Virus record (IMG/VR): IMGVR_UViG_3300036835_000164
Location: 1-47,084 of that record
Source: a virus
Reading direction: 5' to 3' (one strand)
DNA: 47,084 bases
In this document: positions 6,525 through 38,838 of the stretch, one piece after another
Position numbering within the stretch: the stretch's first letter is position 1
How the letters are laid out: every line of letters begins with the position of its first letter
The notes under the pieces: model-generated
What the model was told of the DNA's origin: nothing
Databases searched by the model: none
The model's input: only the letters and a program-made list of their open reading frames with translations
Program-made: the position numbers and the translations under genes

Positions 6525-7081
6525 GGAGCCGAGGGCTCACTCTCCTCCGGTTCCTCCGGAATCGTCACCGCCGTGGCGGTGAGGAGGCGGCTTGGGGGAA
6601 TCCCCGCTTGATGGGCGAGAGCCCTCAAGCGGTCCTCGATCTGGCTGTCCGAGAGGACTCTGTAGTTGTGAGTTATGTCGATTGAGGTTTCGGTTTTGTC
6701 GCTGAAGCCACTCATCTTCGCTAGGGAGGCTAGGGCTGTCATGAACTTGGCCGGGTCTGTTTCCGCTAGGGCCGTCACGGCTTCCCGTGACGGAACGAGC
6801 AACAGCCATTCGGCGAGGAGATCTGTAAACGGCGCGCGGTCGAAACTCGTTAATCTCCGGCGAAGCTCCGTACCTGTAAAGCGCGGAGACCGTGGGTGGG
6901 GTACTGTCTTCCCGCCATTTTTGAATCGTGCGTTCGCGCTTCTGGATGGTGGTTTGTCCTGCGGCGAATTTGTTTTCATAGGAGACTCGCGAGGCGAGGA
7001 GGATCCACTGGTCGATGGAGGTGATGGAGGACATGAGCTGGCCGTCGGGTCGGTAGATGACGGGCAGGCCGAATTCGTCAA
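6512..7081 (-). CDS. C-terminal frame of split small-terminase-like protein
   Basis: Only the second half of this frame looks protein-like, from about 6850 to the stop at 6512. It contains FTDLLAEWLLLVPSREAV, then ETDPAKFMTALASLAK and VLSDSQIEDRLRALA. The 'DPxKFxxALxxL ... LSDxxIxxRLxxL' pattern is like the oligomerisation end of phage small terminase subunits. The first half (Ser/Pro rich) looks out of frame, and no start with a ribosome site was found for it. The overlapping frame 6537-7241 supplies a plausible N-terminal winged helix, so I infer one gene read through a +1 shift. Confidence 0.5.
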   Translation of the reverse strand: MTNSACPSSTDPTASSCPPSPPSTSGSSSPRESPMKTNSPQDKPPSRSANARFKNGGKTVPHPRSPRFTGTELRRRLTSFDRAPFTDLLAEWLLLVPSREAVTALAETDPAKFMTALASLAKMSGFSDKTETSIDITHNYRVLSDSQIEDRLRALAHQAGIPPSRLLTATAVTIPEEPEESEPSAPSGA

Positions 7082-7241
7082 TCCAACGGGCTAGGATGCG
7101 GCGGTCTGAGACGTGGAGGTACTCGGTGATGGCTTTGACACCTAGGAGGAGGTTCTTGGAGGGGTCGATTGCCACGGCTGGGGCGCAGCCGAGTTCGGCT
7201 CGGACGCGAGCCCACATTTCAGGCTGGGGGACGCGAGCCAT
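6537..7241 (-). CDS. HTH protein, probable N-terminal frame of small terminase
   Basis: Residues 28-80 match an excisionase/Nu1-type helix-turn-helix layout: GVKAITEYLHVSDRRILARW, then a GLPVIYRPDGQ wing and a SIDQWIL helix. Nu1-like small terminases carry such a domain. A second helical part follows (TTIQKRERTIQKWRED). From about residue 130 the frame becomes Pro/Ser/Gly/Arg rich and non-protein-like, while the +1 frame (ending 6512) becomes protein-like. A shift-prone TTT-C lies near 6844. Either a programmed or mutational frameshift, an assembly indel, or two overlapping genes would explain it. Start ATG 7241 has only a weak site (AGGG). Confidence 0.55.
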   Translation of the reverse strand: MARVPQPEMWARVRAELGCAPAVAIDPSKNLLLGVKAITEYLHVSDRRILARWIDEFGLPVIYRPDGQLMSSITSIDQWILLASRVSYENKFAAGQTTIQKRERTIQKWREDSTPPTVSALYRYGASPEINEFRPRAVYRSPRRMAVARSVTGSRDGPSGNRPGQVHDSPSLPSEDEWLQRQNRNLNRHNSQLQSPLGQPDRGPLEGSRPSSGDSPKPPPHRHGGDDSGGTGGE

Positions 7242-11605: not shown

Positions 11606-11872
11606 ATGGGAAAACTACCCGACAAATCTAAGATGTTTCTGACGATGGCGCTGGGCTTCACGATGGTCCAGGCTGGCGTGGAAATGATGAATGACTTGTT
11701 TGATGATAAGAAGATGCACGACGAGTTGAACGGGTCCATTCCGAAGGAATGGCCGTTCCAGCTCTCGCTGGATGAGTTGAACCTGGAAGTGATGGCGTGC
11801 ATGCACTACTACAAAGACTTGGCAATTGCTGAAATTGCCGAGGGGTTGCGTTCGGAGAACGACAATGGCTAG
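11606..11872 (+). CDS. Hypothetical helical protein, 88 aa
   Basis: The ATG is preceded by AAAAGGAACGCGAGA; AACGCGAGA touches the start as it does at 3059. The protein is acidic and mostly helical (MHYYKDLAIAEIAEGLRSE at the end). No known motif. It overlaps the HTH gene by 8 bases. Confidence 0.6.
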   Translation: MGKLPDKSKMFLTMALGFTMVQAGVEMMNDLFDDKKMHDELNGSIPKEWPFQLSLDELNLEVMACMHYYKDLAIAEIAEGLRSENDNG

Positions 11873-12122
11873 GAAGAGGATGGACCTGTCGGGGAAGGAT
11901 GAGAATAAGTGGAAAAAGCCCCCAAGGGACCCGGCCGTGGGAGAGGTGCTCGGCGCTGTCAATCACCTAGACAGCCGGTATCTTTACATGAACTCATACT
12001 TGTCGAGGTCCACCATCTACAAGCTAAGAAAGCCGGGTGGAACGAGGCGCCCCCAGCATATGACATTGGTGGGCGTCCTAGGCGCTGCGGGCTTAGAGTA
12101 TCGCATCACAAGGAAGAAGTGA
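11865..12122 (+). CDS. Cro/CI-type HTH regulator, 85 aa
   Basis: Start at 11865, with GGAGAA 8 bases upstream. Residues 35-78 form an XRE-like layout: SYLSRSTIYKLRKPGGTRRP, then a TLVGVLGAAGLEY helix. In this family the second helix of the pair (SRSTIYKLRK) contacts DNA. With no integrase present it is more likely a phage timing regulator than a lysogeny repressor. Confidence 0.7.
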   Translation: MARKRMDLSGKDENKWKKPPRDPAVGEVLGAVNHLDSRYLYMNSYLSRSTIYKLRKPGGTRRPQHMTLVGVLGAAGLEYRITRKK

Positions 12123-12129
12123 GACAACT

Positions 12130-12393
12130 ATGCCGAGTTATCAACATGATTGCAAGGAAGGATGTGTCTACCTCGGTCAAGACAGACCGCGTGCGGGTGA
12201 GCCGCAGGGGAATTACATTGACGTTTACTACCATCCGGGTTGGAGACACGGGCTCGGATACTTCACAAGGAGGTGGGGCAGCAAGGGAAATGAGTACAAG
12301 ACGAAACACCAAAACGATGCGAACGAGGGGGATGGATGGATAATGGCGAAGCAGATGGCCGTGAAAAAGGGGTTCGTTTTTCCTACCACATAG
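12130..12393 (+). CDS. Small conserved phage protein, 87 aa
   Basis: Begins MPSYQHDCKEGCVYLG, then IDVYYHPGWRHGLGYFTRRWG. This 'YxHDCxxCxFLG...DVYxC' layout is common in short phage proteins of unknown role; the second pair of Cys seen in many members is absent here. Weak ribosome site. A TTG-started zinc-finger gene follows it directly. Confidence 0.6.
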   Translation: MPSYQHDCKEGCVYLGQDRPRAGEPQGNYIDVYYHPGWRHGLGYFTRRWGSKGNEYKTKHQNDANEGDGWIMAKQMAVKKGFVFPTT

Positions 12394-12404
12394 GAGGCAG
12401 GGCT

Positions 12405-12641
12405 TTGCCCGGCGAGGATGATCTGCTATGGTGTTCATTCTGCGGTAAGCACCGCAGGTATGTGAAGTGGCTAGTAGGAGGTGGCACGAAGGAGTATCCA
12501 GCATACTTGTGTGATGAATGCCTTGAAACGATCACGATGATCGTGGAGGAGAAGGAAGATGAACAGCAGAGGCAAGAAGCCAAAGGGAAGCAGAGCAATG
12601 GCAACGGGCACAAGGAAACCGAAGGATCTGATGCTGGCTGA
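12405..12641 (+). CDS. Stand-alone ClpX-type zinc-binding domain protein, 78 aa
   Basis: LLWCSFCGK and YLCDECLETI form the C-x2-C...C-x2-C zinc site of the ClpX N-terminal domain (E. coli ClpX has LLYCSFCGK and YICDECVDLC). The rest is a charged tail; no ATPase follows. In ClpX this domain dimerises and docks substrates and adaptors, so a free copy could compete for or redirect host ClpXP. That is inference. I chose the TTG at 12405: a perfect AGGAGG lies 7 bases upstream and directly after the previous stop. A longer frame from 12336 has no such site. Confidence 0.75.
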   Translation: MPGEDDLLWCSFCGKHRRYVKWLVGGGTKEYPAYLCDECLETITMIVEEKEDEQQRQEAKGKQSNGNGHKETEGSDAG

Positions 12642-13068
12642 GGCCGCTTACAATGAGTTCTACGACCAGCAGCCGCAGATGTTCTTCGAGGATCTTAGCC
12701 ATGCCTACCAAATGCGGTGGGTTAGGGCGATGAGGGTGGCGCTTGGGGACTGGAAACGGTCCACGCCTGGCGCCACGGTGGTCAGAGCAAGCCCAAAGAG
12801 GAGCGTCGTTGACCTGGGCGACGACGAGGCCGTGCATGCCCAGGCCAATGGAAAAGCCAGTAAAAAGGGTCCGAAGGGGATGGGAAAGAAGGTCACCAAG
12901 GCCGAGGCAAAAGAGCGCATTGCGCAATTGCAGGCGATGAATGAAGCGGACAGGGCATTGCTTTCCGATAAGCAACGGAAGGACAAGCCCAAGTCGGAGC
13001 TAAAGGTTATCTGGCGGATGGAAGCTCGTGGAAAACGCATCCGTCATTATGAAAGCTTGACAAACTAA
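12559..13068 (+). CDS. Hypothetical basic protein, 169 aa
   Basis: Starts behind GGAGGAGAAGGAAG and overlaps the zinc-finger gene by 83 bases in another frame. Highly basic ends flank a helical part (LSHAYQMRWVRAMRVALGDW); a KASKKGPKGMGKK linker precedes a Lys/Ala/Glu helix. Nucleic-acid binding is likely from charge, but no family is recognised. Confidence 0.6.
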   Translation: MNSRGKKPKGSRAMATGTRKPKDLMLAEAAYNEFYDQQPQMFFEDLSHAYQMRWVRAMRVALGDWKRSTPGATVVRASPKRSVVDLGDDEAVHAQANGKASKKGPKGMGKKVTKAEAKERIAQLQAMNEADRALLSDKQRKDKPKSELKVIWRMEARGKRIRHYESLTN

Positions 13069-15689: not shown

Positions 15690-16552
15690 TGCCTATGATG
15701 AATGCTCGCGAGGCGAGCCTGAGTTTGCAGCATCGCTTGATGCTGGTCGGACCCACCGGGTCAGGTAAGACCGCTCAGATCTGGACGCTGCCGGGGAAGA
15801 AGTTCTGCTATGTGTTTGATCCAAACACACTGCCAACGATACGGGGATGTGACGTTGACTATGAAATGTTCATACCAGAGGTTCACGAAGTGGACTGGAG
15901 CCTTAAGGGGTTCAACAAAGGCTCTAAGTCGGACCGCCCTAAGCGGTCCCCGGAGCCCAAGCTGTACAAGGAATGGACTGAGAATTTCAACGAGAAGTAT
16001 GACAGCGGGTTCTTTGATACTTACAACTGGCTTATCCTTGATAGTGCAACCTTCCTGCATCGTGCCTGCATGGATAGAACGTTATGGCTTAATGGAAGAT
16101 ATGGAGACATCGAGGACATTTCCGACTATCGCGTCGTGGGCTCGAAGCTCACTGACGTCTTCAACTCCATCACCTCACTGCCGTGCAATATATTCTGTAC
16201 TGGACACCTCAATACTTATCAAAACGACAAAACCAAAAAGGTGACGACGGAGATCTACATGCCGGGCAAGGCCCGGAACATAGTGCCGTTGATGATGACT
16301 AACGTGTGGATGACATTCACGGAGGAAGACAACGATGGACGGATGAGATACTTTGTAAGGACGCGACCGGACCCGAAGGGTCTGGTTGACATTAGGTGCT
16401 GTTTCCCGCACCTGGCAACTGAAGAGGATGTTACGGTTGAGAACTTTCGGCAACTGATTCCGGGAAAAGGAGGAGTTGGTTTGCTCCTAGAGCAAGCCGA
16501 GGCAAAGGCTAAGGAGCTAGTTCATGCCCAGAATCAACCTGGACTTAGATGA
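15689..16552 (+). CDS. Sak4-like RecA-fold ATPase, 287 aa
   Basis: Walker A GPTGSGKT is at residues 21-28 and Walker B NWLILDSATF near 112-121; FCTGHLNTY is the sensor region. This is the AAA_24/Sak4 single-strand annealing ATPase family found in phages with a DUF669 partner, which is the next gene. It likely pairs single strands during recombination-dependent replication. An in-frame TTG at 15686 is possible, but the ATG at 15689 overlaps the previous stop and follows GGAG. Confidence 0.85.
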   Translation: MPMMNAREASLSLQHRLMLVGPTGSGKTAQIWTLPGKKFCYVFDPNTLPTIRGCDVDYEMFIPEVHEVDWSLKGFNKGSKSDRPKRSPEPKLYKEWTENFNEKYDSGFFDTYNWLILDSATFLHRACMDRTLWLNGRYGDIEDISDYRVVGSKLTDVFNSITSLPCNIFCTGHLNTYQNDKTKKVTTEIYMPGKARNIVPLMMTNVWMTFTEEDNDGRMRYFVRTRPDPKGLVDIRCCFPHLATEEDVTVENFRQLIPGKGGVGLLLEQAEAKAKELVHAQNQPGLR

Positions 16553-17318: not shown

Positions 17319-18576
17319 CATCTTCGACGAAGTGGAGATGCGGGAGCTGGAGGAGTCTATTCAGCAAAAGGGGTTGTTCCAGCCCATAACAATTGACGTT
17401 TACAAGAATCTGGTCGCTGGGGAGCGTAGGCTTCGGGCGCACAGAAACTTGGGGCTTGCTACGATCCCGTGCGTCATTCGAGACGAAGACGTAATGGACA
17501 AGTTAAGGATTGAATTGCATGAGAATGTGAGGCGTTCCAACCTGACATGGCACGAACGGTGCCGGTTCGAACAGAGAATCTGGAACGCTGGCGTTGAAAA
17601 GCATGGCGAGATGTACTGGTCACTGGCAAAGCAGCAGGAAATGTTCGGGTCATCTAAGACCCGAATAATGATGCGGTTGCAAGTGGCTGAGGCAATGGAA
17701 ACGATTCCGGAGTTGACTAATTGCGTTGACCTCGACGAAGCGTTTAAAGAAGTTAAACGCGGCGAGGAGGTGGAACACATCCGAGCCTTGATGCACAAGA
17801 CAGCGGAAGAGGCCGCCGAGGCTCCTAAGTGGGCAGAGGACCACTATGTAATTGGGGATGCTTTTAATGGGATGCAGAAGTTCCTCAACACGCAGCCGCA
17901 CTCCCAAGGGAATGCGTTCCAGTTCGCGGAGGTTGATCCTCCTTATGGAGTTGACCTACACAGACGAAAGGGACGAAACACAGACACTAGCTCTATGGAA
18001 GAATATCTCGAGTGGGAAGATTTTCCTCAGCTGTTCGAGAAGACCGCGAAGCTCGTCTACGAATGTTTGGACCCTCATGCGTTCGCAATCTTCTGGTATG
18101 GAATGTCCCGACACTCTGAGGTGTTGGGAATTCTGCGTAGCGTGGGATGGGCAGTCCCTGATATCCCAGCGATTTGGTTTAAAGGTGAAGTTGGACAGAC
18201 CGCAAGTCCAGATACCACTCTTGGGAGTTGCTATGAACCTTTCTTCGTCGCGAGGAAAGGACAGCCTAAGATGGCAAGACCTGGGCGCGGAAATGTTTTC
18301 AACTTCCCAAGACTTCAAAGGAAGACGCACCCCACGGAGAAGCCGGTCCACCTGATGGAGGAGCTACTGGGAACGTTCTGCTTCGCGGGGTCGAAGGTGC
18401 TAGTGCCATTCCTAGGCAGTGGTGTGACGTTGAGGGCATCGTACCGGATTGGTTTGAGTGGCATGGGCTGGGACCTGAGTGACAAGCACAAGCAAGGGTT
18501 CCTCTACACGGTGCAGCAGGACTTGAGGGAAGCTGAGGCCTCCAACGAGGAGGCAGTCAATGCCAACCCCGTATGA
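17260..18576 (+). CDS. ParB-domain DNA methyltransferase, 438 aa
   Basis: Residues 1-100 are a ParB/Srx-like domain (EIPIDQIKVGKRA, QKGLFQPITI, GERRLRAHRNLG). From about residue 220 comes a DNA methyltransferase: catalytic DPPYG at about 226-230 and the SAM-binding FLGSGVTLRASY near the end, with KTHPTEKPVHLMEEL before it. DPPY before the FxGxG motif is the beta-type order, N6-adenine or N4-cytosine. The probable role is genome protection or marking; target unknown. I chose ATG 17260 (GGAGAGG upstream) over an in-frame TTG at 17245. Confidence 0.9.
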   Translation: MMEVVEIPIDQIKVGKRARDIFDEVEMRELEESIQQKGLFQPITIDVYKNLVAGERRLRAHRNLGLATIPCVIRDEDVMDKLRIELHENVRRSNLTWHERCRFEQRIWNAGVEKHGEMYWSLAKQQEMFGSSKTRIMMRLQVAEAMETIPELTNCVDLDEAFKEVKRGEEVEHIRALMHKTAEEAAEAPKWAEDHYVIGDAFNGMQKFLNTQPHSQGNAFQFAEVDPPYGVDLHRRKGRNTDTSSMEEYLEWEDFPQLFEKTAKLVYECLDPHAFAIFWYGMSRHSEVLGILRSVGWAVPDIPAIWFKGEVGQTASPDTTLGSCYEPFFVARKGQPKMARPGRGNVFNFPRLQRKTHPTEKPVHLMEELLGTFCFAGSKVLVPFLGSGVTLRASYRIGLSGMGWDLSDKHKQGFLYTVQQDLREAEASNEEAVNANPV

Positions 18577-20191
18577 AGATGGAGATCCAGGAGCACCGAT
18601 ATGTGTTTTAGGCGAGGCTCCAAGCAGCGTGGAGATGAGGATCGGAAGGCCTTTCGTTGGGCCTTCTGGCGACGTGTTCAAAGACCTGCTAAGCACAGCA
18701 GGTCTCTCACGGAGAGACTGTTACATACTGAACGTATGGCCATGGCAGGTGACGAAGGACAGGCTGGGGAACATAATCAGCCCATACAACGAGAAGCTGT
18801 GGGACAGAAACAAAGGCTTCACAGACCAAGGGGACATAGAGGCTCTTGGCGCAATCGACAAGGTGAGAAGATGCAAAGCGAATTGCGTGCTTACTTTAGG
18901 CAATCCGGCCCTCGATGCGTTGTCGTCAGGCCACAAGCCGATTGGCAAGTGGAGGGGCTCACCCTTATTCTCAAAGAGGGTGGGAAAGAAATTCATACCC
19001 ACATTCCACCCAGCCGCAACTCTGCATGGTGTGTATGTGTGGAGATATCTGATCTTGTGGGATTTAGGGAAGCTAAAGGACGAACTCAGCTCCCCGGAGC
19101 TGGTGCTGCCGGATCGCAACTTGATAACCGCGCCTTCATGGGCCGAAGTCAGCGAGTACTTCGAACTGTGTTCCCGCGCGGGGAGAGTGTGCACGGATCT
19201 GGAGGTGATAAACAATCACGTGAACTGCTTCAGCCTGGCCTACCGAGTGGACGAGTCGCTGACCGTTCCACTGGTGAATGAGCATCGAGAGCCTTACTGG
19301 AGCGAGGACCAGGAGATTGAGATATGGCAAAAGTATGCCACCTTGATGGGCGACCCTGGAGTAATGAAGATCAATCACAATATGATCGGCTTCGATGCAG
19401 TGTTCCTGTTAGACAAATGCAACATATACATGCATGGGCCTATTGGCGACTCAATGATTGCACAGTCGATCCTGTACCCAGACTTCCGGATGGGACTAGA
19501 CATGACGGCAAGCATTCACACGCGGCAGCCCTACTGGAAAGATGAGGGCAAGATATGGAAGCCAAACCACAATATTTCGTGGGACCAGTTTCAGAGATAC
19601 TGCGGATTGGACGCCGCTGCTACCTTGGAGTGCTGGTGCCAGTTAGAACAAGAGTTGTCAGAGGGGGACTACTGGCGAACCTACGACATGACCGTAAAAC
19701 TGAAAAGCCCCTTAGCCTACATGACAATCAGGGGACTTAAAATCGACCGAGAAGGTCTTGAGCTAGCAAAGGTTAGAGTACAGGAGAGGTTAAATGCCAA
19801 GAGCCAGGAACTCAAGGATGTCGCAGACTACGAGTTTAACCCCCTCAGTCCGAAGCAGTGTTCCGAATACCTATATGAGCACTGCCGAAATGAGCCATAT
19901 AGAAACTCGACTGGAGGAATTAGCACAGACGATAAAGCGCTCTCTCGTCTTGTGCGAAAAGCTGCAAGAGGATCTAGGGAAGCTAAGGTCATCCAGGAAA
20001 TTCGAGCTTTAAACAAGCTGAAGAGTACATACCTGGAGGTCGAACTTGATGGGGACGATAGACTAAGATGTTCATGGAATCCGCGTGGGACGGTCTTCGG
20101 TCGGCTATCATCTTCGCAGACGATTGCTGGCACTGGGTTGAACCTCCAAAATCTCCATCCGGAGTTCAAGAGCTTTATTGTAGCGGGGTAA
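18560..20191 (+). CDS. DNA polymerase A, N-terminal piece: UDG-like plus 3'-5' exonuclease
   Basis: Residues 1-180 resemble family 4/5 uracil-DNA glycosylases: GEAPSSVEM at 18-26, GRPFVGPSG, and TFHPAATLHG with His150. Next is a proofreading exonuclease: Exo I CTDLEV (Asp213, Glu215), Exo II INHNMIGFDAVF (Asp279), Exo III YCGLDAAAT (Tyr347, Asp351). The thumb follows and the piece reaches FGRLSSS and NLQNLHPEFKSFIVAG, then stops. That is right before motif A, which is at 21837. SPO1 polymerase has a similar glycosylase-like front. The second piece starts 1.6 kb downstream. Start behind GAGGAGG. Confidence 0.9.
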   Translation: MPTPYEDGDPGAPICVLGEAPSSVEMRIGRPFVGPSGDVFKDLLSTAGLSRRDCYILNVWPWQVTKDRLGNIISPYNEKLWDRNKGFTDQGDIEALGAIDKVRRCKANCVLTLGNPALDALSSGHKPIGKWRGSPLFSKRVGKKFIPTFHPAATLHGVYVWRYLILWDLGKLKDELSSPELVLPDRNLITAPSWAEVSEYFELCSRAGRVCTDLEVINNHVNCFSLAYRVDESLTVPLVNEHREPYWSEDQEIEIWQKYATLMGDPGVMKINHNMIGFDAVFLLDKCNIYMHGPIGDSMIAQSILYPDFRMGLDMTASIHTRQPYWKDEGKIWKPNHNISWDQFQRYCGLDAAATLECWCQLEQELSEGDYWRTYDMTVKLKSPLAYMTIRGLKIDREGLELAKVRVQERLNAKSQELKDVADYEFNPLSPKQCSEYLYEHCRNEPYRNSTGGISTDDKALSRLVRKAARGSREAKVIQEIRALNKLKSTYLEVELDGDDRLRCSWNPRGTVFGRLSSSQTIAGTGLNLQNLHPEFKSFIVAG

Positions 20192-20196
20192 AGTAC

Positions 20197-20487
20197 GTGT
20201 TTGAACTCTCGACCATTGACGTTGGCATTGGAATTATGTTCTGCTTAGCTGTAGGCTTCGTAGCAGGAGTCGTCATTAGCAAGGAGAACGGCGATGGTGG
20301 AAGGAGTAATAATGTTGTTGATCTACCTGGCGATAGTATGCCTGGTAGTCTACGTGGCTCTATGGGTCCTGGGAGAGTTGGGGATAGCCCTTCCTCCCCA
20401 GGTGGTAAAGATAATCTGGATCATCGTAGTGTTGGTGGCGCTGCTACTTCTGCTACGCCTGGTCCTGCCAAGCCTTGGGATAGGTAG
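20197..20487 (+). CDS. Small membrane protein (possible lysis regulator), up to 96 aa
   Basis: GTG start 6 bases after the polymerase stop, with GGGG before it. A single membrane helix at about residues 10-28 (GIGIMFCLAVGFVAGVVI) and then KENGDGG. The second half is Gly/Ser/Pro rich and lies over the holin-like gene in another frame, so the functional part may be only the first 35-40 residues. Position at the front of the lysis cassette suggests a holin partner or antiholin; unproven. Confidence 0.4.
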   Translation: MFELSTIDVGIGIMFCLAVGFVAGVVISKENGDGGRSNNVVDLPGDSMPGSLRGSMGPGRVGDSPSSPGGKDNLDHRSVGGAATSATPGPAKPWDR

Positions 20488-20494
20488 GTTGTAG
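20294..20494 (+). CDS. Holin-like two-helix membrane protein, 66 aa
   Basis: Two long hydrophobic helices at about residues 6-30 and 38-60, separated by a short LPPQ turn, and a short end LGIGRL. Start behind AAGGAGAA. Size, topology and position ahead of an endolysin fit a holin or pinholin, though similar two-helix membrane proteins of unknown role occur in bacteria. Confidence 0.6.
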   Translation: MVEGVIMLLIYLAIVCLVVYVALWVLGELGIALPPQVVKIIWIIVVLVALLLLLRLVLPSLGIGRL

Positions 20495-20537
20495 GTGAGA
20501 GTGAGCAAACGTCAACTAAGTGTAAAGGAGAGGCTAC

Positions 20538-20852
20538 ATGGACCGCAGAGCTCTAATTGTCGGGATGTTGGGATTCGCCCTGAGTGCTTCCGCTGGAATG
20601 GCTGCTGAGCCGAAGCCTAAGCCGAAGCCTGACAAGACCGACAAAGGCGACAAGCCTGGTAAGAAGGACAAAGGCGACAACGGAGGCGGAAAGCACGGAG
20701 ACCACGACGGTCATGGTGGTCACGGAGGCCACGGCGGCTGGGGTGGCGGTCGCCACCATGGAGGCTGGGGCGGTGGCAGACGCCACGGCGGCTGGCGCGA
20801 GCCGGACTGCTACTATTCCCGGCGCCGTGAACGCTGGGTCTGCAATTGGTAA
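20538..20852 (+). CDS. Predicted exported His/Gly-rich protein, 104 aa
   Basis: Signal peptide at residues 1-22 (MDRRALIVGMLGFALSASAG), followed by a Lys/Pro/Asp/Gly linker and a His-Gly-Gly-rich repeat region (HGGHGGHGGWGGG type), which could bind metal. It ends with a two-Cys segment EPDCYYSRRRERWVCNW, a pattern seen in small secreted proteins of alphaproteobacteria. AAGGAGAGG precedes the ATG. It lies inside the lysis cassette, so a periplasmic helper of lysis is possible (inference). One alternative is a host-derived envelope protein. Confidence 0.65.
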   Translation: MDRRALIVGMLGFALSASAGMAAEPKPKPKPDKTDKGDKPGKKDKGDNGGGKHGDHDGHGGHGGHGGWGGGRHHGGWGGGRRHGGWREPDCYYSRRRERWVCNW

Positions 20853-20947
20853 GCTAACATGAAGTGCGAGCTGTGCAAGTCTGAAGTGGAGCGGGCTTGC
20901 ACAGCCTTCGTGCAAGTCGCTTACTGTGACACATGGAGGAGCAAATC

Positions 20948-21832
20948 ATGCAAGTCACTCCGAGAGTCGTTGATCTCTCTCATTATCAATACGACGAACT
21001 GGGAGGGCGCTTTGATTGGGACGCTATACGGCGCTTCGGAATTTGGGGTGTCATCTACAAGGCGACGGAAGGCTCCAGCTACGTCGACTACACGTACCAA
21101 GACGCGCGCCGCCAAGTCGAAGACGCTGGCCTCCTCTTCGGGGCCTACCACTTCTTCCGTCCTGGAGATGCTACAGCGCAAGCAGACCACTTTCTGGAGA
21201 ATGCCGCGCCAGACGGAGGAACCCTGTTGGTGCTGGATCACGAAGACGACGGATGCTCCATCGGAGACGTTAAGGAGTTCATGAAGCGCGTCGAGGACAA
21301 GACCGGCCAGAGGCCGGCGCTGTACTCTGGCAACGTCATCAAGGAGCAACTGGGGAGTAACCGGGATGAGTATCTCGCCTCTTGTAGGCTGTGGTTGTGT
21401 CAGTATGGAAGCTCTCCTTCATGGCCACCGAACTGGGACAGCATGTGGCTCTGGCAGTACACAGATGGGGCCGCAGGGCCCAGTCCGCACGAAGTACCGG
21501 GCATCGGGAACTGTGACATCAACAGTTATGGCTTGTCTCAGGCGGACCTCGAAAGAAGCTGGGCGCCTGGAGCCGGGCCAGACGTTGACGTTGAGACGGG
21601 AATGACTGCAGACGAAATGCTCTGGACGCAGGCCAGTTTGAATGTGGTCTCGAATGCTGGCCTGGAGCCCGATGGCCTGTACGGCCCGGCAACTGCCGGT
21701 GCATTGAAAGAATTTCAGCGCAGGCACGGGATTGCCCCTACGGGGCAGCCTACGAAGGGCACAGTGCAAGCCATACTGGAGGAGCTTGATGCCTGGAATG
21801 ACGACCGCAGAATCATCAATGTTGATTCTTGA
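20948..21832 (+). CDS. Endolysin: GH25 muramidase with peptidoglycan-binding domain, 294 aa
   Basis: GH25 lysozyme fold: VVDLSHYQ (Asp9) at the start, FGAYHFFRPG near 64-73, and the catalytic LLVLDHEDD (Asp97, Glu99). GH25 enzymes cut the MurNAc-GlcNAc bond. From about residue 218 there is a PG_binding_1 domain (LEPDGLYGPATAGALKEFQ). No signal peptide, so release needs the holin-like protein upstream. Start at 20948 chosen for GGAGGAGC. Its end overlaps the second polymerase piece by 44 bases. Confidence 0.9.
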   Translation: MQVTPRVVDLSHYQYDELGGRFDWDAIRRFGIWGVIYKATEGSSYVDYTYQDARRQVEDAGLLFGAYHFFRPGDATAQADHFLENAAPDGGTLLVLDHEDDGCSIGDVKEFMKRVEDKTGQRPALYSGNVIKEQLGSNRDEYLASCRLWLCQYGSSPSWPPNWDSMWLWQYTDGAAGPSPHEVPGIGNCDINSYGLSQADLERSWAPGAGPDVDVETGMTADEMLWTQASLNVVSNAGLEPDGLYGPATAGALKEFQRRHGIAPTGQPTKGTVQAILEELDAWNDDRRIINVDS

Positions 21833-22847
21833 GTTCGATCTTGCCGGTGCAGAGTGGGTGGTCGTGGCTTACCTGAGCCGCGACCCTAACATGCTGGAAG
21901 TTGTCCGCTCAGGAAAGTCTCCGCACATAGTCACTGGGGCGCTGATCTCCGGCGCCCCGGAGGAGTTCGTTCTCGAGGAACACAAAGTCGTTGGCTCGCA
22001 CACAGATGCGACTACAATAGAGATGCTGCGGAAAAGCCTGCATGTTCCGCCGCAGATCTTTCTGCCTAGGGTGATGTCCATCAGGCAGGCTGGTAAGAAA
22101 AGTAATCATGGTCTCAACTACAACATGAAGTACCGTAGGTTTGCGCTTGAGAATGAAATGCTGGAAGCAGACGCTCAGCCTATTGTTGAGCGTTACGTCA
22201 ACGTAGCCTACCCAGGAATCAAGAACTACTGGGAGTCCATCAGGAAGGAACTCAAGGACAACAAGCGGACGATGGTCAACTGCTTTGGGCGGCGGGTTAA
22301 GCTCAGAGGAGAATGGGGCGAGGAGTTGTTCAATCAGGCCTACAGCTTCAAGCCGCAAAGCACTGTAGTCGACATTGTAAACGCTGCCATGGTGCTTGCC
22401 TACGAAGATGAGTCCCCTGACTTTGAAAACTTTTTCCTTGGGGCACAAGTACATGACTCCCTTCATGTGCAAGCCATCGTCCCGCAGACGCGGGACGAAT
22501 GGCTAAGCCTTGCCCGCATGGTTTTAGTTCTCAAAGAGAACTACATGCGGCCGACACTATCATACAACGGGGTGGAGTTCAAGCTCGGCTGCGATGCCAA
22601 GCTCGGCATCAACTGGGGCAACATGGAGAGCTTCAAAACTAGTGACGACATCGAGGATGTCGTCACGCGAGTCCGCGCTGCCTACGACGTCTGTCTTGCA
22701 AGTAAGAGCGCGCACCCTGCGGGCTCGGAGGAACAGGTGGAGGAGGCGGTGGAATCGTTGTCGGAAGAGTCTGAGGCTCATTTCCTGCAGCGGCTAAGAT
22801 CTGAGCACCAAGATTGGGGAGGGCAGGGGGACCTGGGGGCGGCTTAA
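21789..22847 (+). CDS. DNA polymerase A, C-terminal piece: palm and fingers, 352 aa
   Basis: Carries the three polymerase motifs. Motif A is LILEFDLAGAEWVVVAYLS (Asp17). Motif B is RQAGKKSNHGLNYNM near 99-113, with His where most family members have Phe. Motif C is QVHDSL (His222-Asp223), with Ser for the usual Glu. It begins where the piece ending at 20191 stops, so the two make one complete polymerase if they assemble or are spliced. It has its own ribosome site GGAGGAG 4 bases before ATG 21789. Conserved sequence ends near 22635; the acidic tail beyond overlaps the convergent late gene. Confidence 0.9.
   Translation: MPGMTTAESSMLILEFDLAGAEWVVVAYLSRDPNMLEVVRSGKSPHIVTGALISGAPEEFVLEEHKVVGSHTDATTIEMLRKSLHVPPQIFLPRVMSIRQAGKKSNHGLNYNMKYRRFALENEMLEADAQPIVERYVNVAYPGIKNYWESIRKELKDNKRTMVNCFGRRVKLRGEWGEELFNQAYSFKPQSTVVDIVNAAMVLAYEDESPDFENFFLGAQVHDSLHVQAIVPQTRDEWLSLARMVLVLKENYMRPTLSYNGVEFKLGCDAKLGINWGNMESFKTSDDIEDVVTRVRAAYDVCLASKSAHPAGSEEQVEEAVESLSEESEAHFLQRLRSEHQDWGGQGDLGAA
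22642..22666. terminator. Perfect 11-bp hairpin at the convergent gene overlap
   Basis: GTGACGACATC-GAG-GATGTCGTCAC. It lies within the polymerase tail, and the minus-strand stop codon (22663-22665) is inside it. It could slow transcription from both sides. Confidence 0.5.
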
Positions 22848-38412: not shown

Positions 38413-38838
38413 CTAGGCTGAAACGATGTTGTTGGCGTTGTTGCTGTCACTTTCCCAGGAGGGATCACCCGAGACGCCCACAGCAGCTAGACCACCGGCG
38501 CCAGAGCCGCCGCTGAAACTGACAACAATCTCACCACCAGGAATGATTTTCTGGGGGGATGATGCCAGATTCTTTGTAACGATCTTACCCGGCGTGGTCC
38601 CGTTAGGGATCGTTAGGGTTCCAAGCGTCACTTGGCCAGCGGCGGAGCCAGGGGTCGGTCTATAAGTGAATGTGACAACGCAGGCTGCTGTGACCACTGT
38701 CGCGGTCACGACTGCCCAAAGTCGCCGGATATAGAGGGGAGTTCCTGGATAGGAACGACTGCCCGCGATGAACGCCGCGTCAGCCAGTGAGGTCGGCGGC
38801 AACAGCGCAACGTCAAACTTCTGTTGGTCGTAAGACAT
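38413..38838 (-). CDS. Probable capsid decoration/head protein, 141 aa
   Basis: Strand-rich: PLYIRRLWAVVTATVVTAAC, VVTFTYRPTPG, then GTLTIPNGTTPGKIV and GGEIVVSFSGGSGAGG. A jelly-roll-like strand pattern and position right after the major capsid gene suggest a decoration protein. AAGGAGGT precedes the ATG. No close family known to me. Confidence 0.6.
   Translation of the reverse strand: MSYDQQKFDVALLPPTSLADAAFIAGSRSYPGTPLYIRRLWAVVTATVVTAACVVTFTYRPTPGSAAGQVTLGTLTIPNGTTPGKIVTKNLASSPQKIIPGGEIVVSFSGGSGAGGLAAVGVSGDPSWESDSNNANNIVSA

Follow-up and report, generated by a model that had tools for sequence, protein, structure and literature searches.

The N-terminal zinc domain of ClpX is the site on which adaptors and some substrates dock. 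In published in vitro experiments, adaptor-dependent degradation by ClpXP was inhibited when the isolated zinc-binding domain (ZBD) of E. coli ClpX was supplied in trans, and at 5-20 µM the ZBD inhibited the RssB-mediated turnover of σS; deletion of the ZBD is reported to leave ssrA-tagged substrates unaffected (PMC7226468). The domain dimerises (PMC7226468, PMC5890618), and its dimer core is described as being formed by helices and hairpins (PMC5890618). According to the account in PMC7804408, residues F16 and I46 of E. coli ClpX are required for trigger-factor enhancement, and the same region binds lambda-O, SspB and RssB. Species specificity is reported for the ClpX N-domain of Caulobacter, on which CtrA delivery and DnaX processing depend, as does, in the authors' model, the removal of SocB (PMC5422525). 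The Bacillus subtilis anti-sigma factor CsfB/Gin, a treble-clef zinc dimer, was reported to be closest in structure to the ClpX N-terminal domain (NTD), with about 20% identity to it and a different interface interaction pattern (PMC5890618). A phage modulator of a Clp protease has also been described, namely SPO1 Gp53, which acts on ClpC in an adaptor-like manner (PMC6873191).

The DNA analyzed here (the window) is an IMG/VR virus contig of 47,084 bases from a soil phage, with matches to portal, terminase, major head protein and DNA polymerase. The preliminary description of the window proposed a free ClpX zinc domain at positions 12405-12641, with no ATPase following it, and our analysis bears this out. 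The gene lies on the plus strand, as do all of the features described below unless stated otherwise, and is an intact frame of 78 residues with a TTG start. The Pfam profile zf-C4_ClpX (PF06689) matches residues 9-49 with 35.8 bits (E 7.7e-9; curated cut-off 27), which is the single PF06689 match in the whole record, and all seven matches of a PDB sequence search at E≤0.001 are ClpX. The four zinc cysteines are all present, in two CxxC knuckles: CSFC (C10 and C13; 12432-12443) and CDEC (C36 and C39; 12510-12521). The beta hairpin comprises residues 23-36 (12471-12512), and the C-terminal helix, taken from the predicted structure, residues 37-63 (12513-12593). The pattern CxxC-x15-25-CxxC occurs in two of the 250 ORFs of at least 60 aa in the window, the zinc-domain gene and one on the opposite strand. 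The NCBIfam models of full ClpX align to residues 5-61 only and score 29.9 and 27.5 bits (cut-offs 359 and 370.75), as expected for a domain without the motor. Neither an AAA+ ATPase nor a Walker A motif, by which ClpX is defined as an AAA+ unfoldase, follows the zinc domain, and the frame ends at residue 78. Judged by these sequence matches, the gene is a phage-borne free ClpX-type zinc domain.

The start of the gene is preceded by a Shine-Dalgarno sequence, AGGAGG (12392-12397), located 7 nt before the TTG and overlapping the stop codon of an 87-aa ORF directly upstream (12130-12393), which has no family match. An in-frame ATG at 12336 would offer an N-terminal extension. From the TTG onward, the G+C content by codon position (0.57/0.41/0.58) is similar to that of the neighbouring genes, whereas in the candidate extension (0.65/0.48/0.39) it is unlike them; the TTG is therefore the better choice. 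At its other end the frame stops at 12641, already within the overlap by an unrelated downstream gene (12559-13068; start 12559 or 12598), so that the zinc-domain gene is part of a tightly packed gene cluster. It had also been suggested that the TTG with a strong Shine-Dalgarno sequence indicates tuned expression. This argument is weak, because several unremarkable genes of the same genome also have AGGAGG-type sites in front of them (among them the genes with starts at 18560, 32594 and 39793), and AAGGAGG stands before the gene starting at 38838. The PADLOC models gave no match at E≤0.1 for the zinc-domain protein or its two neighbours, and neither an Rfam family at the gathering threshold nor a tRNA was found in the window.

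In order to compare the protein with ClpX, we used a multiple alignment (A2) of 61 sequences, consisting of 46 ATPase-less and 14 full-length viral ClpX domains and the window protein. The residues C10, F12, C13, C36 and C39 are invariant in this alignment. The claim of the preliminary description that the protein closely matches the ClpX N-terminal domain holds for the knuckles, since CSFCGK and CDEC are identical to those of ClpX, and fails for the hairpin, which is four residues longer (residues 29-32; 12489-12500) and has lost the AGP motif, LIAGP being replaced by LVGGG. In the window protein, 22 residues separate the cysteine pairs, compared with 18-20 in all the other 60 sequences of the alignment, and no locus among the 79 viral ones whose core can be read exceeds 20 (locus L070 has no readable core). 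A spacing of 18-20 residues is a habit of the family, from which the window protein departs, and not a Pfam criterion. Additionally, position 19 is Y, whereas E dominates in the alignment, and helix positions 42-43 are T-I, whereas L-C dominates. The E. coli ClpX ZBD (PDB 2DS5-2DS8, 1OVX) has the same knuckles and the same order of hairpin and helix, and its pocket residues F16 and I46 (numbering of PMC7804408) correspond by alignment to F12 and I46 of the window protein, both being kept. It differs in its spacing of 18, in LIAGP, in a Y in place of W9, in L-C in place of T42-I43, and in the AAA+ ATPase that the window protein lacks. Because hairpins are reported to contribute to the ClpX dimer core (PMC5890618), the changes in the hairpin touch an element of the dimer interface. 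Searches with the window protein's own peptide patterns gave three pattern matches in viral contigs and 55 in genome contigs, of which none was confirmed as a close homologue, and purifying selection on the protein therefore cannot be shown. A tblastn search of 50,697 phage records found eight records, all unannotated and below 60% identity, several of them short and possibly bacterial contigs.

The structure was predicted with AlphaFold2 from the 61-sequence alignment, which itself included ClpX sequences. The mean pLDDT of this model is 85.1; by blocks it averages 93-98 across residues 11-60, and it has a modest value of about 61 over the last 18 residues. Hairpin strands are predicted at residues 23-27 and 32-36, and a long helix at 37-63. 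The first four rows of a Foldseek search with this model were three ClpX ZBD crystal chains (2ds5, 2ds6), with 0.9 Å over 42 columns, and one CLPX-CLPP integrative model. With VIA-align, the model matched 2ds8_B, the E. coli ClpX ZBD complexed with the SspB tail, with Z 5.7 and 0.8 Å over 41 residues; ClpX ZBD rows occupied ranks 1-5 and 7, and the best non-ClpX row had Z 3.9. A predicted fold distinct from the ClpX domain, which had been named beforehand as the result that would speak against the assignment, was thus not obtained with the alignment-based model, while a model from the single sequence was uninformative on this point: its mean pLDDT is 70.1, and its fold search led to generic treble-clef-like zinc fingers (ZAD, E6, ZZ), ClpX being absent from the matches. 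A library of viral structures gave no fold match at E≤0.001. CsfB was not among the Foldseek and VIA-align rows of the alignment-based model, an absence that does not exclude likeness. The assignment to ClpX is carried by comparison at the sequence level, and the structure model agrees with it.

It is important to mention that lone domains of this type are not confined to the window. Scanning viral contigs with a profile, we confirmed 94 places. Of these, 80 were analyzed; the domain lacks an ATPase at 56 loci (one of them, L070, with a broken core), and the frame runs on into a Walker A ATPase at 24. At none of the 56 ATPase-less loci was a ClpX-like Walker A found within 2.5 kb downstream. 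In genome contigs, the best 80 of 560 confirmed places all have a Walker A in the same frame, that is, full ClpX. The domain was found in 148 of 150 genomes of one phylum, and among the matches listed for these genomes, frames of less than 200 codons occur at at least four places (G164 has two frames of 97 codons, G170 has one of 188, and a 47-codon frame stands at the start of a contig in G140). Free copies thus seem to be infrequent in chromosomes and frequent among the viral matches, a tendency and not a measured enrichment, as the samples were drawn differently. In the genome of locus L188, Pseudomonas syringae GR12-2, a second zf-C4_ClpX match (G029:C1:507931-508038; 46.2 bits, weaker than that of its ClpX) lies in a 545-codon frame.

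Lone domains also occur in the cultured phages Caulobacter Cr30, Escherichia P88 and D6, and Pseudomonas BUCT566 (gp74), and full-length ClpX-like genes are annotated in Bacillus phage G, Agrobacterium Atu_ph07 and Sinorhizobium Phosso. Like the window gene, the four lone copies are small genes with one ClpX-type zinc domain and no ATPase; unlike the window protein, they keep the 18-residue spacing, and those of P88 and D6 have long N-terminal extensions. Their annotations are hypothetical, "carboxylate-amine ligase" and "Clp protease ATP-binding subunit". The ligase label, that of the P88 gene (L232, 815-1147), is probably an annotation error. In Cr30 (L231, 899-1171), the annotated start of AGS81055.1 falls after the first zinc knuckle and looks too late, because the open frame extends upstream across the whole ClpX-type domain. 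The PHROG families 6797, 5259, 20296, 12435 and 10675 match the zinc core weakly (E 3e-5 to 0.013); family 12435 is labelled "protease" and the other four are of unknown function. No published study of phage free ClpX zinc domains was found in the open-licence literature, as judged from titles, abstracts and counts. Lone phage copies are already in the databases, loosely annotated, and the window gene is a divergent member of an uncharacterised class.

The upstream ORF and the zinc-domain gene together fill a variable slot. The terminase of the window is common to 39 viral loci, whereas its portal has no tblastn match in the 50,697 phage records. Among the records with a related terminase, 24 of the 39 loci were searched whole, many of them fragments; none has a zf-C4_ClpX match above the cut-off, and one has a match below it, of 13.6 bits. 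The slot could be compared in two of eight relatives. The slot is empty in L150, where the genes homologous to the two flanks (the frame at 11862-12122, whose exact start is not set, and the gene at 12559-13068) abut; in G020, which also has relatives of both flanks, it is filled by an unrelated 108-aa ORF. The flanking genes were not recognisable in G008, G012, G013, G016 and G017, and the G007 record gave no match to them. Judged from this comparison, the slot fits an accessory cargo position within an early region whose gene order is otherwise conserved. Two of the relatives, L125 (G012; about 16099-16404) and L129 (G013), encode in their early region a small zinc-finger-like protein of another kind (CxWCG...CxxEC).

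The best explanation of the gene, which we put forward tentatively and at somewhat less than an even chance, is that it encodes a decoy for adaptors or substrates of host ClpXP. The product would be a copy of the ClpX ZBD, soluble and probably dimeric, that acts in trans and is probably expressed early in infection. As its pocket is intact, the free domain would be expected to compete for the partners of ClpX: the hydrophobic pocket (F12, I46) may occupy host adaptors or ZBD-dependent substrates that otherwise dock on ClpX, so that adaptor-delivered degradation would be damped and adaptor-independent degradation, for example of ssrA-tagged proteins, would be spared. The mechanism suggested in the preliminary description, that a free copy blocks or redirects host ClpXP, is plausible. 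SPO1 Gp53 is likewise a phage protein reported to act on a host Clp protease; it is of 25 kDa and targets ClpC/ClpCP and not ClpX (PMC6873191). The decoy explanation is supported by the gene itself, its domain, the kept cysteines and pocket residues, the missing ATPase, the alignment-based model, the published inhibition by free ZBD, the variable slot and the recurrence in phages; counting against it are the loss of AGP, the four additional hairpin residues, the absence of a confirmed close homologue in viral and genome contigs, and the lack of a ClpX match from the single-sequence model. The protein might also form mixed dimers with host ClpX, which is less secure because the altered hairpin contributes to the ClpX dimer interface.

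The differences from the ClpX consensus at helix positions 42-43 and within the hairpin would also be accounted for if the treble-clef dimer had been repurposed, the fold being kept and the partner being unrelated to ClpX, for instance a sigma factor, a polymerase or a replication protein. The ClpX NTD and CsfB are reported to resemble each other as treble-clef dimers and probably to differ in their partners (PMC5890618), and the single-sequence model resembles treble-clef fingers generally. We nevertheless consider such repurposing rather unlikely, given that CSFCGK, CDEC, F12 and I46 are identical to ClpX beyond what zinc binding alone needs, and that ClpX ZBD rows lead the VIA-align ranking. 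It is still less probable, and in our judgement quite doubtful, that the protein is a phage adaptor which forms mixed dimers with the ClpX ZBD and tethers a phage or host protein through its charged C-terminal tail (residues about 50-78), ClpXP being redirected and not blocked. The dimerisation reported for the ClpX ZBD (PMC7226468, PMC5890618), the long helix and tail predicted beyond the domain, and the adaptor-like action described for Gp53 (PMC6873191) favour this; however, the element altered in the window copy is the hairpin, which is part of the reported ClpX dimer core (PMC5890618), and the tail has no family match and the modest pLDDT noted above. Finally, the empty slot in L150, the absence of the domain above the cut-off from the terminase relatives searched, and the lack of a detectable close homologue in viral and genome contigs are what a decaying captured host fragment of no importance would leave, yet the intact frame, the good ribosome site, the gene-like codon composition, the four zinc cysteines and the tightly packed cluster make decay very improbable.

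If the decoy explanation is true, phages would decide, by means of one domain of less than 10 kDa, which proteins of the host are degraded by ClpXP, and the domain would be a cellular tool to separate adaptor-dependent from adaptor-independent roles of ClpXP. Because lone copies recur in cultured phages (Cr30 on Caulobacter; P88 and D6 on E. coli), this explanation can already be tested. A broader proposal, which we regard as unlikely at present, is that unrelated phages have repeatedly taken the lone ClpX zinc domain as a class of trans-acting decoys, each tuned, here by remodelling of the hairpin, to one adaptor or substrate branch of the host ClpXP network (for example a cell-cycle, sigma-factor or toxin-antitoxin adaptor), thereby editing the selectivity of the protease without stopping it.

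Several other features of the genome were observed. DNA polymerase A is divided between two separate genes (18560-20191 and about 21800-22847; together 18560-22847), between which lie small ORFs and a GH25/peptidoglycan-binding endolysin gene (20948-21832). No Rfam intron was found in the window. The two parts are also apart in seven relatives, and the ORFs in the gap vary in the six whose gap was read. Distant matches to the GH25 endolysin and to the AAA_25 (RepA-like) ATPase occur in, among others, alphaproteobacterial plasmids; naming a host from these was rejected, as the matches are too weak. Moreover, the early half of the genome, otherwise on the plus strand, contains a minus-strand ORF (6537-7241); relatives of this ORF occur in seven phages that share the terminase (37-51% over 69-107 aa).
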